Of a stretch of 25,118 bases of DNA, positions 290 through 17,713 are shown one piece after another. The DNA comes from a virus. Numbering within the stretch: position 1 is the stretch's first letter; every line of letters begins with the position of its first letter. The translations under genes were made by a program, and so were the position numbers. The stretch is from positions 1-25,118 of IMG/VR virus record IMGVR_UViG_3300010354_000591; one strand, given 5' to 3'. The notes beneath the pieces were generated by a model. The model saw only the letters and a list, made by a program, of their open reading frames with translations, was not told the origin of the DNA and made no database searches.

Positions 290-628
290 ATGCCACGTCC
301 TTTATGTGTTTGTGGGTTTAGACCCGCTGCTATTAACTATTACAAAAATAACAAACCCTATTATCGCAAAAAATGCGAAGTATGTCTACATGGCGGCGTA
401 GGCAAAGGTATACCTAAGTGGTATCAAGAAGGCTTTAGACTAAAGCCTGTATGTGACAAGTGTGGATTTAAAAGCAAGCACAAAGAACAGTTTAATGTCT
501 ACCATATAGATGGTAATATGAACAACAACCGACCTATTAATTTAAAATGCGTATGTGCTAATTGTCAACGCATTTTATCCAAAGAAGGAGTTAATTGGCG
601 ACGAGCTGATCTTCAACCAGATTTCTAA
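290..628 (+). CDS. Small zinc-finger / HNH-like protein
   Basis: This 112-residue protein carries nine cysteines in pairs: C6-x-C8, C29-x2-C32, C55-x2-C58 and C87-x-C89-x2-C92. An HNH-like core reads YHIDGNMNNNRPINL followed by CxxC, resembling the H-x-DGN-x-N-NL-x-CxxC treble-clef of HNH nucleases. The histidine that normally follows the second CxxC is a glutamine (NCQ), so nuclease activity is uncertain and a structural zinc-binding or DNA-binding role is equally possible. I recall similar small proteins near structural genes in marine T4-like phages, with a conserved start like MPRxLCxCG, which supports the ATG at 290. There is no clear ribosome-binding site. Its last 38 bases overlap, tail to tail, the 3' end of the kinase gene on the other strand. 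Confidence 0.7.
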   Translation: MPRPLCVCGFRPAAINYYKNNKPYYRKKCEVCLHGGVGKGIPKWYQEGFRLKPVCDKCGFKSKHKEQFNVYHIDGNMNNNRPINLKCVCANCQRILSKEGVNWRRADLQPDF

Positions 629-2443: not shown

Positions 2444-2458
2444 TTGAATCTCCCGTAT

Positions 2459-2466
2459 TATTTATC
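2459..2466 (-). promoter_or_regulatory. Putative late promoter box for gp13-like gene
   Basis: The minus strand reads GATAAATA, one or two changes from TATAAATA. T4-like spacing places the start near 2453, leaving a roughly 10-base leader that keeps the GGAG of the ribosome-binding site. It abuts base to base with the oppositely oriented box at 2467-2474. Confidence 0.55.
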
Positions 2467-2474
2467 GCTAAATA
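2467..2474 (+). promoter_or_regulatory. Putative late promoter box for gp14 gene
   Basis: GCTAAATA, the same octamer as before the sheath gene. The ATG of gp14 follows after seven bases (TTATACT), so a T4-like start site near 2480 gives a leader of about two bases. No Shine-Dalgarno sequence is present. With 2459-2466 it forms the inverted repeat TATTTA-TCGC-TAAATA. Confidence 0.55.
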
Positions 2475-2481
2475 TTATACT

Positions 2482-3867
2482 ATGCCGCGTTTATCACTTT
2501 ACCGCCCAGAAAAGGGCAACGATTACAAATTTATTGATCGCCAGGCCAGTGAAATGTTCACTGCTGGAGGCACAGACATATATGTACACAAATATATAGG
2601 TCCGTTAAATCCTTCAGACGAAGATGCCACCGCAGATCAGCCGCAATATGCGTCTGTAAAAGAGACAAATATTCAAGATCTATTGTTTTTAGAAAACAGA
2701 GATCGCAAGTATGATTCTAGTATATACAAAATTAGAGGCGTATATAACGTACAAGATATTGACTTTAATTTAAGTCAATTTGGACTTTTTATAGATAATG
2801 ACACGTTGTACATGACTGTACATATTAACGATTTTATTAAGACCGTAGGAAGAAAACCGCTCAGCGGTGATGTATTAGAAATACCTCATTTAAAAGACGA
2901 ATTTGCCCTTAATGAAGCAGATGTTAGTTTGCCACGCTACTATGTGATCAGCGATGTTGGTCGCGCAGCAGAAGGATTTAGCCCTACATGGTATCCACAT
3001 TTGTATAGATTAAAACTGACAAAAATCAGTGACAGTCAACAGTATAAAGAAATTTTTGATCAGAAAATTGTAGATCCAATTACCGGCGACGAAACTGCTC
3101 AAACTTTAAGAGATTTACTCAGTACCCAACAGAAAGCATTAGACATCAACGATGCTTTGATCGCACAAGCAGAAGCAGATGCTCCAAAAAGTGGATACGA
3201 AACACAACATTTTTATACTCTTGCTATAGACGAAAAAGGCAATGCTGCATTAGAAACAGTAGACGACAGTGCTACTCCTCCTGATGCTAGCTCAACAATG
3301 ATGGATGCTAGTAGAATTACTAAACGTCCAAAGCGCAGCGGCTATCAAGGTTATTTGTTAGGCGATGGTATTCCAGACAACGGAGTAGATTTTGGGCATG
3401 GTATACAATTTCCTCAAAGTCCGTTAGAGGGTGATTACTTTTTGCGTACAGATTTTTTACCCAATCGTTTGTTTAGATTTGACGGTGCGAGATGGATAAA
3501 GAGAGAAGATGCTGTGCGTACAACAATGACTCAAACTGATACTAAAGACACACAAAAAGGAACGTTTATCAATAACAATAATAAGACTGGTGTTGGATTT
3601 ATTATCAGCGATGTTATTAGACCGGTGTCAGCTACAACAACAGTGTTGACCAATGAAACATTTACCGCTGGTATGTTTGCCAGTGTGTCCAGTGATACTG
3701 TAGATACTAAAGTATTGAGTGTTACTTCTGGCGCCGGTGGTAAAGCATTAATTACATTTACCAATGCTGTTCCTGCTGGGAAACAAGTCGAATGGAAATT
3801 GTATTCAAGTTCGACCGAAGAAAGAGTAGCTCTTAGCAAAGTTTTAAGACCAAAGGCTGATTTATAA
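2482..3867 (+). CDS. gp14: Neck protein gp14, with long C-terminal extension
   Basis: A 461-residue protein starting MPRLSLYRPEKGNDYKF, as gp14 homologues of marine T4-like phages do. Residues about 85-190 (FGLFIDNDTLYMTVHINDF, then KPLSGDVLEIPH and a RYYVISDVGRAAEG segment) align with the T4 gp14 core, which also has FGMQVQDEVTLSINPNLF and EGDLIYFP. gp14 makes the outer neck layer and is needed for head-tail joining. T4 gp14 is only 256 residues; here about 200 extra residues follow, including a PNRLFRFDGARW segment near residue 330, a W-rich element also seen at the end of gp15. The start has no ribosome-binding site but sits directly after a late box. The stop overlaps the gp15 start by one base (TAATG), implying coupled translation. 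Confidence 0.85.
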   Translation: MPRLSLYRPEKGNDYKFIDRQASEMFTAGGTDIYVHKYIGPLNPSDEDATADQPQYASVKETNIQDLLFLENRDRKYDSSIYKIRGVYNVQDIDFNLSQFGLFIDNDTLYMTVHINDFIKTVGRKPLSGDVLEIPHLKDEFALNEADVSLPRYYVISDVGRAAEGFSPTWYPHLYRLKLTKISDSQQYKEIFDQKIVDPITGDETAQTLRDLLSTQQKALDINDALIAQAEADAPKSGYETQHFYTLAIDEKGNAALETVDDSATPPDASSTMMDASRITKRPKRSGYQGYLLGDGIPDNGVDFGHGIQFPQSPLEGDYFLRTDFLPNRLFRFDGARWIKREDAVRTTMTQTDTKDTQKGTFINNNNKTGVGFIISDVIRPVSATTTVLTNETFTAGMFASVSSDTVDTKVLSVTSGAGGKALITFTNAVPAGKQVEWKLYSSSTEERVALSKVLRPKADL

Positions 3868-5474
3868 TGCAATATTTTTATGACGGGCAAATAAGAAGAT
3901 ATCTTCTACAAATAATAAGATTATTAAGTAATTTTGTTGTGAGATATGGAGACGGTACTTTGGTTAGAGTACCCGTAATGTATGGAGATCCTGATAGACA
4001 AGTAGCTCATATTGTCAATCAGAACAGCGAAAATACTACTGTGAGCGCACCTCGAATAGCAGTTTATATTACTGAATTAGAATTAGACACTTCTAGATTA
4101 GCTGATCCTAGCTTTGTAGGTAAGATGCACATTAGAGAAAGAGAATACGACGACCTAACTGGAGAATATACTAGCAGTCAAGGTAATACTTATACCGTAG
4201 AACGATTAATGCCGACTCCATTTAAATTATCAGTAAAGGTTGATATTTGGTCTACAAGTAATGATCAAAAATTACAAATTTTAGAACAATTACTAATGTT
4301 GTTTAACCCCAGTTTAGAAATTCAAACTACTGATAATTATATTGATTGGACCAGCTTGAGTGTAGTTGATTTAACTGCGGTAACGTATAGCAGTAGAGCC
4401 GTGCCTGTTGGGACCGGTACCGAAATTGATATAGCTACCCTGTCTCTTCAAACTCCAATTTATATCAGTCCGCCTGCTAAAGTTAAGAGACTTGGTGTAG
4501 TTACTAATATTATTACCAGTGTGCTAGGTTCTATCGATCAAGTCTCAGATTTTTATGTCGAAGGATTGGGTTCTGATAATAACAAGAGCGAAAGCGGTAC
4601 GGTAATTGGCAGTCTTTTATTCAGTATGAATACCAATTTGTTGTTTACTTTAGAAGTTACTAGTAATCAACTTAGATTAATTTCTAAAAATGAATATGTG
4701 AGTTGGTACAAAATTATAGAAATGAATCCTGACATTTATAAAGAAGGACTTACAAAGATATATCTACGACAGCCAGATGGTACTTATGTAGTAGGATATG
4801 TTGCGTTAAATCCGTTAGATGACACTATTATGACAGTTAATTGGGATCCTGACAGTTACCCTAGTAATAACTCCATTCCGTCTACATTTAGAAATCCCGG
4901 TCTGCTAGGATCTTTTGATGCCATAATTGATCCGCAAAAAACTAGACCTGATACAACCAATACTGGTACTAGATATTTAATACTTGAGGGTATAGGTGGT
5001 GGATACAGAGACACATTTACCGCAGAAAATAGTGTTCACAAAATTGCTACAGATTTTTTAAGACGTAAAGTAAATGATCATAAAATATTTGTTGACGGCG
5101 TTGAAGTAGGCAGTGGCGGCCCTAGTGAACCGTGGAATCCTGCTAACCCTGTTATTTACAATAGTAATTATTACATAACATTAGATGATGCTGCTCCTCC
5201 GGGTAGTGTGATAACCTACGAACTTTACATGAACGACGATGGTCCTGATGCATGGAAAAACAATGATGGCAGTGATTTTATTGCTGAAGCTAATGACATA
5301 GTAGAATGGAATGGCACAAAATGGAACGTAGTTTTTTCTGCTAGCGAAAGCGAAGACATGATGTTATATTTGACTAATTTATATACTGGTACACAGTACA
5401 AATGGAATGGTGTATATTGGAGTAAGAGTTTTGAAGGTGAATACGGTAAGGGAGACTGGCACCTTGGACTCTAA
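3867..5474 (+). CDS. gp15: Tail completion and sheath stabiliser gp15
   Basis: A 535-residue protein. The N-terminus (residues 1-50) reads MQYFYDGQIRRYLLQIIRLL, then a short SNF/VRYGD stretch and RVPVMYGDP. It aligns with T4 gp15 (YFYNSSFRRYATLMGDLFSN, RVPITYASK). The segment with RLMPTPFKLSVKVDIWS and ILEQLLMLFNPSL (about 110-150) matches the T4 region containing NPSPIKMIYELSIF and IVEQILPYFQP. gp15 caps the tail tube and sheath and contacts the gp13/gp14 neck. The protein is about twice the T4 length (272); the added C-terminal half ends in W-rich elements (VEWNGTKWNVVF and YKWNGVYW). It is coupled to gp14 by a one-base TAATG overlap, and its 3' end overlaps the Nudix gene start. Confidence 0.85.
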   Translation: MQYFYDGQIRRYLLQIIRLLSNFVVRYGDGTLVRVPVMYGDPDRQVAHIVNQNSENTTVSAPRIAVYITELELDTSRLADPSFVGKMHIREREYDDLTGEYTSSQGNTYTVERLMPTPFKLSVKVDIWSTSNDQKLQILEQLLMLFNPSLEIQTTDNYIDWTSLSVVDLTAVTYSSRAVPVGTGTEIDIATLSLQTPIYISPPAKVKRLGVVTNIITSVLGSIDQVSDFYVEGLGSDNNKSESGTVIGSLLFSMNTNLLFTLEVTSNQLRLISKNEYVSWYKIIEMNPDIYKEGLTKIYLRQPDGTYVVGYVALNPLDDTIMTVNWDPDSYPSNNSIPSTFRNPGLLGSFDAIIDPQKTRPDTTNTGTRYLILEGIGGGYRDTFTAENSVHKIATDFLRRKVNDHKIFVDGVEVGSGGPSEPWNPANPVIYNSNYYITLDDAAPPGSVITYELYMNDDGPDAWKNNDGSDFIAEANDIVEWNGTKWNVVFSASESEDMMLYLTNLYTGTQYKWNGVYWSKSFEGEYGKGDWHLGL

Positions 5475-5904
5475 AGAAAAAATTACCTGTAGTGGTGCGT
5501 TATTTTATGCCAAATCAACTCGACGTGTGCTGTTCATACAGAAATCTAATGGTAAGCATCAAGGAACATGGGGTATAGTGGGCGGCACTAACGAATCATT
5601 AGAAACACCGTGGCAGGGTCTTACTAGAGAAATTCAAGAAGAAATAGGATTTGTGCCTGAAATAATAAAAACTATACCAATTGAAACTTTTGTTAGCAAT
5701 GATAAAATTTTTAATTTTCACACATATCTTTGTATAATAGACAAAGAATTTATACCATGTCTAAGTAATGAACATAGCGGCTGGTCGTGGGCCAGTATAG
5801 ATGTTGCTCCAAAACCTTTACATCAAGGTTTAAGAAATAGTTTCAATAACAAAATTGTTAGAACCAAACTTGAAACTATTTTTGAAATTATTGAAATGTT
5901 TTAA
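5464..5904 (+). CDS. Nudix hydrolase
   Basis: A complete Nudix box, G-x5-E-x7-REUxEExGU, is visible as GTNESLE...REIQEEIGF, residues about 41-63 of a 146-residue protein. Nudix enzymes cleave nucleoside diphosphates linked to another group; the substrate here (dNTP, ADP-ribose, NADH or capped RNA) cannot be told. I place the start at the TTG at 5464. Homologues I recall begin just before ITCSGALFYA, and AAGGGAG lies about nine bases upstream. An in-frame ATG at 5407 would add 19 residues with no clear ribosome-binding site and a 68-base overlap with gp15. Even with TTG, the first 11 bases overlap the end of gp15, so expression is tied to the late structural operon. Its stop overlaps that of the converging 198-aa gene. 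Confidence 0.85.
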   Translation: MDSKEKITCSGALFYAKSTRRVLFIQKSNGKHQGTWGIVGGTNESLETPWQGLTREIQEEIGFVPEIIKTIPIETFVSNDKIFNFHTYLCIIDKEFIPCLSNEHSGWSWASIDVAPKPLHQGLRNSFNNKIVRTKLETIFEIIEMF

Positions 5905-6515: not shown

Positions 6516-6523
6516 TATTTATG
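6516..6523 (-). promoter_or_regulatory. Putative late promoter box for the 198-aa gene
   Basis: The minus strand reads CATAAATA, the same octamer as before the zinc-finger gene and one mismatch from TATAAATA. A T4-like start near 6510 gives a 13-base leader (GAGAATTTAAAAA). It lies in the 52-base gap after the 64-aa gene. Confidence 0.5.
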
Positions 6524-6549: not shown

Positions 6550-6744
6550 TTAAACGCCCCATTTTTCTAAAGGACAAATCTTAAATTTATATGAAATTAC
6601 ATATTCTATAGGACACGCACATTGGTCGCAACTTGGTGCTCCTAATATTAAAGTTTGTTTTTCACAAGCATTGCATAATGCTAGTCTAGCTTGTCTTTCT
6701 TGATCGCTAGTAATAACGTTAAAATTTTCTACATCTTTAATCAT
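6550..6744 (-). CDS. Small cysteine-rich protein (DUF6171-like)
   Basis: A 64-residue protein with the pattern RL-x2-C24-x2-C27 ... C39-x2-C42-x-C44 ... YKFKIC57PLEKW. This matches the small zinc-ribbon-like family I know as DUF6171 (RLxxCxxCE...CxxCGC...CPxxKW), often found among phage tail-fibre genes and without an assigned role. The paired cysteines probably bind a metal. Its ATG overlaps the stop of the 412-aa adhesin (ATGA, 6741-6744), showing coupled translation. A related protein sits at 13103-13321, on the other side of five adhesin genes. A role as assembly or maturation helper for fibres is a guess from position only. Confidence 0.75.
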   Translation of the reverse strand: MIKDVENFNVITSDQERQARLALCNACEKQTLILGAPSCDQCACPIEYVISYKFKICPLEKWGV

Positions 6745-13102: not shown

Positions 13103-13321
13103 TTACCATTTCTCCAGCGGACATTGTTTAAATTTAAAAGTAATCATCATACTTATATTACAACCAGAACCTTTACATTTAGTCTGTTGATCTGTGTCAA
13201 TATAAAAATTTTCACAAGGTTTACATTTTTCAAGTCTATTATTAGATTCAGTTGCATCGCATACTACAGAATCTAACGAGTTTTCTTCTACGACAGTTGG
13301 TGCTGGATTAGGATTCATCAT
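13103..13321 (-). CDS. Small cysteine-rich protein (DUF6171-like)
   Basis: A 72-residue relative of the 64-aa protein at 6550. A variable N-terminal 28 residues are followed by RLEKC33KPC36E...C49KGSGC54...KFKQC67PLEKW. The spacing of the central pair (Cx4C instead of CxxCxC) differs from its partner, so metal binding may be altered. Two start codons are possible (MM); the first overlaps the upstream stop as ATGA (13318-13321), favouring it. The gene lies between the first and second adhesin genes in the transcript. Function unknown. Confidence 0.72.
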   Translation of the reverse strand: MMNPNPAPTVVEENSLDSVVCDATESNNRLEKCKPCENFYIDTDQQTKCKGSGCNISMMITFKFKQCPLEKW

Positions 13322-14037
13322 ATTCCGTACCTTTCTCTCTGCGCTGAAAAAATATTTTTTATTTCAGTATCATCTAATCGTCTATTATACATAGCTATGT
13401 AGGATATGTCACCCCAAAATTGATCTGGTCCGGCAGAATTATAAGCGCCTAGAGTTCTGAAGCCGCCTTTAAATCTTGCATTAGCACTGCTGTTAGATCC
13501 TCTTATTGTTTCTGGAGAATCATTATAAGCAAATGTGTAGTAGTTAAAATTATTTTGTGTGCTTACCCAACGCCATACTAGCATGTTCCATTGCGTAGTT
13601 CCATAACCGGGCAAACTCTGCTGGCTAAATCCCGAACTATTAAATCCGGTACCATTTACGTTATCATACATGCCTATTAACCAACCGCCAGCTTGTACAA
13701 TTACTTGATGGTCGTTATTAGACGTTTCTCCTCTAAATAGTGTTCTCCAATTTGATGAAGAATTCAGTATTCTTGTCCAGACTATAGCGGTAACTGTTCC
13801 TGAAAGAGGTATATCAGATCCGCTAGTAGTTACGGCACAACCAAACGATCCTCCAAAATTCATATATTTTGGTCCTGAACTGTTATAAGCTCCAGCATTG
13901 GTGAGAGTGAAATTATTTCCACTTCCGCTAATATCAGTCCACGATGTACCAGAACCTGGATAAGATCTAGTATTACCTGCGTCTAATAATAAAGCTAATC
14001 CGTCTGTAGATATTTCAGGTCCATAATAAATTGACAT
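13318..14037 (-). CDS. LamG-domain tail adhesin, short form (239 aa)
   Basis: The smallest of the six. The N-terminal signature MSIYYGPEISTDGLALLLDA and GNTRSYPGSG is joined directly to the linker-like SWTDISGSGNNFTLTNAG and then to a LamG domain, with no CBM-like middle. The domain shows VTAIVWTRILNSSSNWRTLF, NMLVWRWVSTQNNFNYYTFA and a final IAMYNRRLDDTEIKNIF with RERYGI. It is thus the minimal version of the architecture and shows that N-terminus plus LamG is the conserved unit. The start overlaps the stop of the 1207-aa fibre gene by one base (TAATG). A fibre-tip adhesin paired with the preceding fibre is plausible from order but unproven. Confidence 0.8.
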   Translation of the reverse strand: MSIYYGPEISTDGLALLLDAGNTRSYPGSGTSWTDISGSGNNFTLTNAGAYNSSGPKYMNFGGSFGCAVTTSGSDIPLSGTVTAIVWTRILNSSSNWRTLFRGETSNNDHQVIVQAGGWLIGMYDNVNGTGFNSSGFSQQSLPGYGTTQWNMLVWRWVSTQNNFNYYTFAYNDSPETIRGSNSSANARFKGGFRTLGAYNSAGPDQFWGDISYIAMYNRRLDDTEIKNIFSAQRERYGI

Positions 14038-17000
14038 TACTGGTCCTCAATCTCGACCTCTAATTTATCTACGTCCTTGCGTTCTCCGTAGATTACATAA
14101 AAGCAATCAATATTTTCACCAACTACTTCTACACGGTTGTCTTTGATTTCTCCGACATAGATTTCTTGCTTACGACCCTTAGGAGTAATGCTTACTGTGA
14201 TAGAATCAGGATCGACTAGCCCAGTCCAATAATCTGGTAATTCTATCACATTAGAATTCTTTAGGGTACCTCGAACATAAACACCGTTTTCTGGACCTTC
14301 TAAGCTGCCATATCGTAGCTTCATACCAGATTTAGTTGGGTGATCGATCAAGAAGCTTTTAGTTGTGGCAGCAAAGGCACCGTTGACTTTCAATCTATAA
14401 TTTGCATCGGCGGCCGTGTTCCATGGAAATCCTATCATTACTGTTGCTGCTGCTGCGTCATTTTGTATGAATAGAGGAGCCCATGCGTCTAAGTTAGTAG
14501 TGTGAGCACCGATATGAGCATATCCGTGAGCAGAACCTAAAACTGGTCGTTGACCGTTATTGTCTCCAAATGCTCCTGCGATCCAACCAGTGGCTGCTGC
14601 TGCAGCACCAGAATTGTATGCTGTAAAGTGATTTCTAGCATTACTACTATTAGTTCCTAAGAATCCCGCATTAGTAACTGCGCCAAATCTAGCAGCACCG
14701 TCTGCTGATCTAATTTCTGCTACTACTGTAGGTGTAGTATCACTAGAACCAGTTCCGCCTTCCCATGTCCAACCATATCCAGCAGCATCTTCAATATAGT
14801 TTCTCAAGCCCCAAGAAGTAACCAATGTACTTGAAGGTACTGTAATATTTCCTTTAGTACCTATACTTGTTTGACCAGCTTGTGCCATATAGGTTTGCCA
14901 CGTAGTATAAGAATCTGCATACCAACTTATACCATGAGTAGCGTTACTATCTCTACCAATTAGAATTCTAGGAAAATAACTTTGTGAATTAGAACTAATA
15001 CCACCAGTTACAACTAGTGAACCGGTAGTGCTCGAAGTAGCTGCGGTACCATGAGTATTAATTTGTGCGGATGTTGTAGTTGAACCACCTCCGTATAATC
15101 TTGTTGCTCCAGAATTAGTATTACCATAACCAATAAACATACCGTCATTGAAGGCAGATGAAGTATTATTTCTAATAACACGCACACTGGTATAAACGTC
15201 ATTAGTAGCAAAATCAAGACCATCAGCCCCGCCGGCTAATCCTGATCTAATTACTTCATTACATGTTATTGTTCCAGCGCCAGTAGTTGATCCAATATTA
15301 ATATTAGTTGTACTACCCGAAACTCCACTTGTACCTATGTTAATTGTTTTAGTAACGCCGTTAGCTGTAGCACCTGTGCCCAAGTTCAGTGTTTGAGCTG
15401 CTGTGCTTTGACCTATAGTTATTGCCCCAGTTGCCCCAGTTCCGCCTAATGTAAAAACTCCAGTAGTTTGTGCGCTGTATATTGTTACATTACCTGTTGT
15501 TGTAGTATTATATAAAGTGCTGTTAGTTCCAGCTGCGCTGACAATGTCACCACCTGTAACAGTTATATCACCATTAACAGTTAAATCTCCTTGATCTAAA
15601 TCAAAAATAAACTGATTAGTGCCGCCGCCTACAAATTGTATTTCGTTAGGCGTTGCTGCCCAACGTATGCCCCAAGCGTTTGCTGCTGTTCCGTGGCTAG
15701 GATAATAATCTTCAGAAATACCCCAGATATCGTGATTGTCGTCGCCAGTTTCTCTTGATATAAATCCGCCACCTAATATTGGTCTATTAGCTATAGCAGA
15801 AGGAAACGACGCTTGTCCGCTTACTGTTATAATAGGACTAGACAATGTGGTCGTCCCGCCGTTTGATCCGCCAATATTAACGTTGGTTGTAGAACTAGCT
15901 ACGCCGCCTGTGCCTATATTAACTGTTTTTGTAATAGAAGCAGCAGCAGGAGCAGTACCAAAATTATAAGTGCTAGCTGCAGTGCTAGCATTTCCTATGT
16001 TGATAGTTTGTGCGGCAGCAGCATTGCCAATGTTTAAACTAGTCGCAGCACCAAATGCGTTAACAGTAGTACTAGTTGTATTCCATAAATTAACAGTGGC
16101 TTGACTACCTACCACAGTGGGATTATTAATTGTAGCAGTACCACTGGTAGCTCCCATGTTAAGGGTAGTGGCAGCACCGGCAAAGTTTACAGTAGTACTA
16201 GTTGTATTCCATAAATTAACAGTGGCTTGACTACCTACCACAGTAGGATTATTGATTGTTGCTGTGCCACTGGTAGCACCAATATTAACTGCTGTACCTG
16301 CGCCGGCAAAGTTCACAGTAGTACTAGTTGTATTCCATAAATTAACAGTGGCTTGACTACCTACCACAGTAGGATTATTGATTGTTGCTGTGCCGCTAGT
16401 TGCTCCCATGTTAAGGGCAGTGGCAGCACCAGCAAAGTTTATTGTAGTAGCAGTAGCATTGGCTAAATTAAATGTAGCCGTACTTACTGTTAAGTCTCCT
16501 CCGTCGATATTAACGTCAAGGTCAACATCTAAATTATTTTTAATATTAGTTGTACCAGTAGCAGCGCCAATATTAACTGTTGTACCTGCACCGGCAAAGT
16601 TCACCGTAGTAGCTACTGTATTGTAGACATTTTGAGTTGTCTGACTACCCACTAGTGTTGGGTTATTGATTGTAGCAGTACCACTGGTAGCTCCCATATT
16701 AAGGGCAGTGGCAGCACCGGCAAAGTTCACCGTAGTAGCTACTGTATTGTAGACATTTTGAGTTGTCTGACTACCCACTAGTGTTGGATTATTGATCGTA
16801 GTAGTACCAGTAGTTGTTCCAATATTGACTGCTGTAGCTGCACCAAATAAATTTCCAGTTAATGAGTTTGTGTTAAACACTGACGCTGCGCCGGTATTGT
16901 TACTGACAATGGTAGGTGTTGGACCGTTCATGTTAAAAGTAACACTGGTTGCGTTGCTTTGAGTTATTACCGGATTATTAACAGTGACCGTGCCGGTAGA

Positions 17001-17660
17001 AGCACCAATATTGACTGCGGTAGCTGCTCCGAATAAATTACCTGTAGTTGCTACTGTATTAAAAACGTTAGCAGTAGTAACACCAGTATTTGTACGAATT
17101 GTTGCTGTACCTGTAGTAGCATTACCTCTTACTTCTAAGATGCTGTTTCCAGCTGTAGTTCCTAAATTTAAAACTGCTGCGGGTGCTCCTAGATTAGTCG
17201 TAGTAGCTGCGCCGCCAACGTTTAATGTTGTAGCATTTGCGTTAGCAAGATTAAATGTAGCTGTACTAACAGTTAAATCACCACCATCAATATTAACATC
17301 GCCATCTACATCTAAATTGTTATTGATATTAGTAGTGCCAGTGGCGGCCCCAATTTCCATGCTAGTAGCAGCGCCACCAAAATTAATTGTAGTGGCCACT
17401 GTGTTTAATAAATTAAACGTAGTTTGATCTGTACCAATTGTTCCAGTGCCACCACCTACTGTTAGGGTTCCCGAAAATGAACCGTTATTGCCGACAGATA
17501 AATCTGTGCCTATGTAGGCTTTTTTAGCTATTGCTGCACCACCTGCCGAATATAAACTAGCTGCGGTATCAGAACTAGATGTGGCATCTGTGGTGCCAAG
17601 TATTTGTGCCTCTTCCGTCACAACGAGGCCGTTTTTAACGACGAAATCTACTATTGCCAT
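14037..17660 (-). CDS. Repeat-built tail fibre protein (1207 aa)
   Basis: The protein opens MAIVDFVVKNGLVVTEEAQI. About residues 65-570 are short Thr/Asn/Gly-rich repeats of the form TVNFAGAGTAVNIGATSG-TATINNPT. This pattern is typical of beta-helical or triple-beta-spiral fibre shafts. Some are near-identical 42-residue units (see repeat entries). Middle parts are more varied and contain globular segments. Residues about 1100-1207 form a distinct domain: KSFLIDHPTKSGMKLRYGSL, then EGPENGVYVRGTL, LPDYWTGLVDPDSI and a charged end. I recall this C-terminal domain from many marine phage fibres; it may act in trimerisation or as a tip. A hairpin-containing leader with GGAGAGG precedes the ATG, and a late-type box lies at 17706-17713. 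It heads the coupled adhesin operon. Confidence 0.85.
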   Translation of the reverse strand: MAIVDFVVKNGLVVTEEAQILGTTDATSSSDTAASLYSAGGAAIAKKAYIGTDLSVGNNGSFSGTLTVGGGTGTIGTDQTTFNLLNTVATTINFGGAATSMEIGAATGTTNINNNLDVDGDVNIDGGDLTVSTATFNLANANATTLNVGGAATTTNLGAPAAVLNLGTTAGNSILEVRGNATTGTATIRTNTGVTTANVFNTVATTGNLFGAATAVNIGASTGTVTVNNPVITQSNATSVTFNMNGPTPTIVSNNTGAASVFNTNSLTGNLFGAATAVNIGTTTGTTTINNPTLVGSQTTQNVYNTVATTVNFAGAATALNMGATSGTATINNPTLVGSQTTQNVYNTVATTVNFAGAGTTVNIGAATGTTNIKNNLDVDLDVNIDGGDLTVSTATFNLANATATTINFAGAATALNMGATSGTATINNPTVVGSQATVNLWNTTSTTVNFAGAGTAVNIGATSGTATINNPTVVGSQATVNLWNTTSTTVNFAGAATTLNMGATSGTATINNPTVVGSQATVNLWNTTSTTVNAFGAATSLNIGNAAAAQTINIGNASTAASTYNFGTAPAAASITKTVNIGTGGVASSTTNVNIGGSNGGTTTLSSPIITVSGQASFPSAIANRPILGGGFISRETGDDNHDIWGISEDYYPSHGTAANAWGIRWAATPNEIQFVGGGTNQFIFDLDQGDLTVNGDITVTGGDIVSAAGTNSTLYNTTTTGNVTIYSAQTTGVFTLGGTGATGAITIGQSTAAQTLNLGTGATANGVTKTINIGTSGVSGSTTNINIGSTTGAGTITCNEVIRSGLAGGADGLDFATNDVYTSVRVIRNNTSSAFNDGMFIGYGNTNSGATRLYGGGSTTTSAQINTHGTAATSSTTGSLVVTGGISSNSQSYFPRILIGRDSNATHGISWYADSYTTWQTYMAQAGQTSIGTKGNITVPSSTLVTSWGLRNYIEDAAGYGWTWEGGTGSSDTTPTVVAEIRSADGAARFGAVTNAGFLGTNSSNARNHFTAYNSGAAAAATGWIAGAFGDNNGQRPVLGSAHGYAHIGAHTTNLDAWAPLFIQNDAAAATVMIGFPWNTAADANYRLKVNGAFAATTKSFLIDHPTKSGMKLRYGSLEGPENGVYVRGTLKNSNVIELPDYWTGLVDPDSITVSITPKGRKQEIYVGEIKDNRVEVVGENIDCFYVIYGERKDVDKLEVEIEDQ
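16075..16452 (-). repeat. Three near-identical 126-bp tandem units in the fibre gene
   Basis: Copies begin at 16075, 16201 and 16327 on the plus strand (each with GTTGTATTCCATAAATTAAC). The period of exactly 126 bases equals 42 codons, so the frame is kept. They encode repeats of the form NNPTVVGSQATVNLWN...NFAGA...GATSGTATI. The low divergence indicates recent duplication or gene conversion, and the copy number could change by recombination. Confidence 0.85.
16606..16857 (-). repeat. Two further 126-bp units of a second subtype
   Basis: Copies start at 16606 and 16732 (GTAGTAGCTACTGTATTGTA), again 126 bases apart, encoding NNPTLVGSQTTQNVYNTVAT-type units. They share the frame and general plan of the units at 16075-16452 but use other bases in the TTQNVYN segment. 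The second copy diverges toward its end. Confidence 0.75.
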
Positions 17661-17705: not shown

Positions 17706-17713
17706 TATTTATT
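17706..17713 (-). promoter_or_regulatory. Putative late promoter box for fibre/adhesin operon
   Basis: The minus strand reads AATAAATA, one mismatch from TATAAATA. A T4-like start near 17700 places the hairpin GTAGTTTAAAACTAC almost at the 5' end of the mRNA. The box overlaps the stop codon of the 2395-aa gene. Confidence 0.5.

Follow-up and report, generated by a model that had tools for sequence, protein, structure and literature searches.

Two genes for neck proteins diverge from a short spacer in the DNA analyzed here, a 25-kb virus record of a giant T4-like phage (25,118 nucleotides, hereafter the window), and this arrangement raises the question whether the spacer holds one shared control element or two promoters that lie close together. 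At positions 2459-2474, between gp13 on the minus strand and a gp14-like gene on the plus strand, the spacer harbors the 16-mer TATTTATCGCTAAATA. It is composed of a minus-strand late promoter box facing gp13 (GATAAATA, 2459-2466, with the core TAAATA at 2459-2464) and a plus-strand box facing the gp14-like gene (GCTAAATA, 2467-2474, with the core TAAATA at 2469-2474). The two 8-mers abut and share no bases, exactly as had been described in an initial annotation of this DNA, and the hexamers lie 4 bp apart. The same annotation called the boxes a perfect inverted pair, which is correct for the hexamers but not for the centre, as TCGC is not self-complementary. With up to two mismatches allowed, no second copy of the 16-mer was found in the window (0.02 expected). 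The late box alone, when matched loosely, occurred at chance level (79 seen vs 80 expected), so the window alone is unable to show that the boxes are promoters.

To characterize the genes on both sides, their products and neighbors were compared with known families. The neck genes of the window match those of Atu_ph07, Phosso, SCTP-2, PA5oct and the Rak2/121Q group. The minus-strand gene (1679-2443) encodes gp13, the head-tail adaptor Ad2; it belongs to phrog_211, which is also the PHROG of T4 gp13, and matched T4 gp13 in PDB (E 9e-14) and by hhalign (E 1e-13). It is followed on its strand by a gene without family match, called as an ORF (1293-1676), and by a dNMP kinase gene (591-1238, PF21448). 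The plus-strand gene (2482-3867, phrog_11591), whose mRNA is predicted to be leaderless, encodes a protein in which M1 and P2 are invariant in 38 relatives. Nothing significant was found between this protein and T4 gp14 by PHROG, PDB profile search or hhalign. Structures were predicted for proteins of the window and of fetched contig loci, and the model of the gp14-like protein (pTM 0.37, low confidence) gave the T4 neck structures 9lu5, 9lu7 and 9mkb as best Foldseek matches (E 7e-6), with the connector of phage P1 and the stopper of phage 812 close behind. Because of the T4 neck matches and the position of the gene before a gp15 homologue, gp14 appears a reasonable name, and the protein is a candidate neck protein of the T4 head closure Hc2 type. 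The gene for the gp15 tail sheath stabiliser (3867-5474, plus strand; PF16724, E 2e-22) follows directly, as in T4, and a NUDIX hydrolase gene (5467-5904, PF00293) lies further downstream on the same strand. Each promoter faces more than one gene, namely gp13 and two further genes on the minus strand and gp14 and two further genes on the plus strand.

Loci of relatives were fetched with the two neck proteins as queries; among these and the window's own, the two genes stood head to head in 148, which comprised 78 distinct spacers. IMG/VR loci are not independent; counts refer to distinct spacers or tree representatives where this is stated. TATTTA...TAAATA was present in all 78 distinct head-to-head spacers. 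Both boxes were kept in Atu_ph07 (TATTTA-ACGG-TAAATA) and in Phosso, where the gap is 14 bp. Since all 78 distinct spacers keep both boxes, these are, as judged by conservation, almost certainly T4-type late promoters, and the proposal that one box faces each neck gene is borne out. The spacing between them was not kept. The hexamers are separated by 3 bp in six spacers, 4 bp in 15, 5 bp in 20, 7 bp in five, 8 bp in 22, 9 bp in two, 18 bp in three, 20 bp in four and 27 bp in one, so that of the expectation that relatives would retain both boxes at zero spacing only the first half stood. In addition, a side clade (L412, L416, L418, L420 and L421) carries gp13 1-2.5 kb away, and gp14 has retained its box there in the absence of an inverted partner. 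These loci do not support zero spacing as a device in its own right; the variable gap and the gp14 box kept without a partner rather give the pair the appearance of two independent promoters that the shortness of the spacer has brought together. Genome-wide, head-to-head box pairing showed no clear enrichment in G001, one of the relatives, with eight divergent pairs at 30 bp or less vs five convergent ones. Two such pairs in this genome, at 222378 and 227921 (in L184), lie between divergent radical-SAM genes that both have a box directly before their start codons.

The spacing of plus box and gp14 start behaved differently from the gap. In the window, 7 nt separate the end of the box from the ATG, which leaves no room for a leader or a Shine-Dalgarno sequence, and in the 78 spacers this distance was 4 nt (3 spacers), 5 nt (23), 6 nt (4), 7 nt (44) or 8 nt (4). 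As far as the spacers tell, the gap between the boxes is not selected whereas the distance from the box to the gp14 ATG is held fixed. A Shine-Dalgarno-like motif within 22 nt upstream of gp14 was found in none of the 78 distinct spacers; on the minus side, a GGAG-type Shine-Dalgarno sequence lies 4-6 nt after the box in 74 of them. The T4 late box is located at -13 to -6, one helical turn from the RNA start (PMC2988020). With this geometry, transcription of gp14 is predicted to start at 2480-2482, 6 nt downstream of the final A of the box and at or not more than 2 nt from the AUG at 2482, and transcription of gp13 at 2453 on the minus strand, with a leader of about 10 nt and the Shine-Dalgarno sequence GGGAGA (2449-2454, minus strand) at the 5' end predicted for this mRNA. 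The starts predicted at 2453 and 2480 agree with the distance of about 27 bp that had been estimated before. Together with T4 geometry, the spacing of 4-8 nt places the 5' end of the gp14 RNA on the AUG or no more than about 2 nt away from it, and the gp14 mRNA should thus be leaderless or nearly so. At a distance of 5 nt the predicted start falls exactly on the AUG and at 6-8 nt a leader of 1-3 nt is predicted, which is near-leaderless; at 4 nt it would fall on the second base of the ATG if the start is not displaced by one. In bacteria, TA-led leaderless genes lack a Shine-Dalgarno sequence and carry a -10 box 10-13 bp upstream of the start codon (PMC3160421, BMC Genomics 2011). The data agree with the established way of identifying leaderless genes, which relies on a -10 box located about 10-12 bp upstream of the start (PMC3160421). 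The gp14 layout resembles them in both respects, the first T of the plus TAAATA being located 13 bp before the ATG at 2482, but their box is that of a housekeeping sigma factor on host chromosomes and not, as here, a phage late sigma box for virion genes.

To analyze if this layout is confined to gp14, the spacing between TAAATA and the first ATG was determined in large contigs of four relatives (383, 199, 223 and 133 kb), with genes called by a simple longest-ORF rule and with other A4T2 hexamers as control. The distances were bimodal, with a sharp class at 4-8 nt (the close class), a broad class at 10-30 nt and almost no cases at 0-3 nt. The close class comprised 26, 10, 6 and 8 genes in the four relatives, about 50 in total vs about 5 expected, and the control hexamers gave means of 2.5, 1.2, 0.7 and 0.3 and maxima of 8, 4, 3 and 2 at 4-8 nt. 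The fused arrangement of late promoter and start codon is found in about 3-8% of genes in this phage group. A Shine-Dalgarno sequence was present in 3 of 50 close-class genes (94% without), compared with 81 of 114 genes of the 9-30 nt class and 373 of 750 remaining genes (Fisher 1e-15 and 1e-10, respectively). The start codons at close distance were 58 ATG, 2 GTG and 1 TTG (n=61) vs 2027:689:1018 among overall candidates; near-exclusive use of ATG would be expected where ribosomes depend on finding an AUG at the 5' terminus (PMC9031893). A preference for G-A before TAAATA was common to the close and the 10-30 nt classes, which suggests that both use one promoter type. The close class of G001 includes the virion genes for the gp14-like protein, tail tube, baseplate wedge and a virion structural protein, and besides these endonucleases, several radical-SAM proteins and many unknowns.

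The same search was applied to a comparison set of T4, Atu_ph07 and PA5oct, together with 400 kb from each of Phosso and SCTP-2. Close-class counts were about at control level in T4 (0), Atu_ph07 (2), PA5oct (1) and Phosso (1). In SCTP-2 (L301-L320) ten genes were found vs a control mean of 4, eight of them at exactly 5 nt and 0-1 at neighboring distances. A/T hexamers overlapping the box peaked similarly in this AT-rich background, which leaves us unsure whether the SCTP-2 layout is a separate origin of the arrangement, as it may be.

Other explanations for a TAAATA close to the gp14 ATG have to be weighed against this pattern. Transcription of gp14 could come from another promoter and provide a leader, with TAAATA serving as an AU-rich ribosome-standby or translation signal for initiation without Shine-Dalgarno sequence. 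The region is indeed AU-rich, translation starts of this kind occur in some bacteria, and in 19 of the 50 close-class genes a preceding gene on the same strand reaches up to or into the box, so that readthrough could supply a leader there. However, the close-class boxes share their G-A extension with the boxes at 10-30 nt of Shine-Dalgarno-led genes, no other A/T hexamer peaks in the four relatives, ATG is nearly exclusive in the close class, and in Atu_ph07, Phosso and the L066 clade TAAATA stands far from the ATG, with a Shine-Dalgarno sequence present. We regard this explanation as unlikely. Much less probable still are binding of a dimeric regulator to the repeat as its operator and formation of an RNA hairpin, to which the dyad symmetry of the hexamers and the perfect 16-bp palindrome of locus L019 might point; the arms match a promoter box found genome-wide, and an arm spacing of 3-27 bp with a centre that is not conserved is unlike a dimer operator. 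Chance matches in AT-rich sequence, for one box or for both, would be in line with the chance-level number of loose matches in the window, but with both boxes kept in 78 of 78 distinct spacers and in Atu_ph07 and Phosso we give this reading the least credence of all.

The abutting boxes could also form one shared bidirectional promoter at which competition sets the gp13:gp14 ratio. For this speak the predicted starts, which at 27 bp apart lie inside one polymerase footprint, the presence of both boxes in all head-to-head spacers, and the steric exclusion established at bidirectional promoters of E. coli (PMC12825309). These promoters, described by Warman et al. (PMC12825309), resemble the site in having divergent starts so close that one polymerase is expected to fit. 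They have a shared symmetric -10 element, with starts mostly 18 bp and commonly also 10 and 23 bp apart (PMC12825309), whereas the two separate boxes here predict starts at distances of about 26-50 bp, according to the gap between them. A bidirectional promoter in the sense of Warman et al., with one shared symmetric -10 element, is thus not what was found: the 8-mers of the window are separate and share no -10 bases, the hexamers of relatives lie 3-27 bp apart, and the gp14 box of the side clade persists with gp13 1-2.5 kb away. In E. coli, competition occurred only when one side was strongly activated, and none of the five tested promoters showed basal competition, as basal initiation was too low (PMC12825309). 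The view of the initial annotation that two polymerases could not occupy the site at once is supported by the closeness of the starts, as judged from polymerase size and the E. coli bidirectional promoters (PMC12825309), and mutual exclusion is plausible across gaps of 3-27 bp. Its further proposal, that the site splits transcription to set the ratio of the two neck proteins, found no support, given that further genes follow on both strands and that the five E. coli promoters lacked basal competition. A shared promoter that sets the ratio is improbable, to about the same degree as a translation signal.

We consider it quite probable that the site is a compact head-to-head pair of late promoters with an unselected gap, the plus box fused to the gp14 start so that its mRNA is leaderless and gp13 left with a minimal leader, and that this layout recurs at the genome-wide frequency given above. 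The basis of this account is the conservation of the boxes, the variable gap, the fixed distance from box to ATG, the genome-wide class, the lack of Shine-Dalgarno sequences, the bias towards ATG and the presence of a late sigma factor; the start sites, the leaderless translation and the mutual exclusion of polymerases are inferred. A gp55-like sigma factor with the host RNA polymerase would recognise each TAAATA from its own side, the boxes being separate elements that are close only through the short spacer, and polymerase would start at one or the other of them, probably not at both simultaneously. With box and start codon fused on the plus strand, gp14 would yield an mRNA that begins at or next to the AUG and is translated leaderless, and the gp13 leader of about 10 nt would comprise little more than its Shine-Dalgarno sequence.

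A gp55-like late sigma factor (phrog_12791, E 1e-72 to 1e-118, and phrog_234) was detected in all ten relatives searched. The promoters resemble T4 late promoters (TATAAATA, gp55/gp33/gp45) in the presence of this sigma family, the TAAATA core, the A favoured before it, the dispensable -35 element and the driving of structural genes on either strand. They differ from them in that G-A or G-C often precedes TAAATA, and in that in T4 a box at 4-8 nt before the first ATG occurs in no gene. A search for the T4 clamp family phrog_223 gave a match in T4 but in none of the relatives, whose clamps may be too divergent for detection.

Subsequently, the start of gp14 was followed across relatives. In 204 of 238 gp14 upstream regions the box was close, no Shine-Dalgarno sequence was present and the start codon was ATG throughout. 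About 30 of the 238 had a distant box, mostly with a Shine-Dalgarno sequence, among them several that have GTG, TTG or ATT as start codon. In a quick tree of 126 gp14-like proteins, at least seven changes of state were counted, five of them forced by well-supported branches, and 97 of 107 members of the main clade were of the leaderless type. These upstream classes and the tree indicate that promoter distance and Shine-Dalgarno sequence change together. It is likely, if slightly less so than the account of the site itself, that giant T4-like phages have fused late promoters to start codons, giving a leaderless class with neck, tail tube, baseplate, endonuclease, radical-SAM and other genes, and that genes like gp14 switch between leaderless and Shine-Dalgarno-led initiation over short evolutionary times. 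In the L066 clade gp14 is Shine-Dalgarno-led and keeps the box; L066 itself carries an HNH endonuclease gene between gp13 and gp14 (4239-4880), and spacers near 770 bp in L323, L324, L335 and L336 suggest the same arrangement there.

A phage mRNA that starts at its AUG is known as a single case from the temperate phage lambda (mentioned in PMC3160421), unlike the genome-wide late class predicted here for T4-like phages. No report of leaderless T4-type late genes was found in the open-licence literature searched. If the account is correct, a T4-type late programme, in a form undescribed for T4 in that literature, would use leaderless mRNA for several virion proteins, and the host would have to translate such mRNA well late in infection. 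It would further supply a sequence rule for gene starts that Shine-Dalgarno-based callers may misplace, and a phage system in which one gene repeatedly switches its initiation mode with the promoter box constant.

A second box of the leaderless type is located in the window at 277-284 on the plus strand (CATAAATA), where it ends 5 nt before the ATG at 290 of an HNH endonuclease gene (290-628, plus strand; phrog_10822) that is predicted to be leaderless. The relative of this gene in G001 (128485, plus strand, about 2.5 kb before gp14) also has the close layout, with a distance of 4 nt. Three further TAAATA on the minus strand, at 213-218, 6516-6521 and 17706-17711, stand upstream of the genes that start at 180, 6497 and 17660, at distances of 32, 18 and 45 nt, respectively, and are likely ordinary leadered late promoters. 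Small cysteine-rich, zinc-ribbon-like genes are located at 6550-6744 and 13103-13321, each adjacent to the gene of a large surface-type protein. At least one of these neighbors (13318-14037) is laminin-G-like. A gene at 14037-17660 encodes a 1207-aa protein with many near-repeats of the type TVNFAGAATALNMGATSGTATINNP and a C-terminus that resembles the end of a tail fibre.
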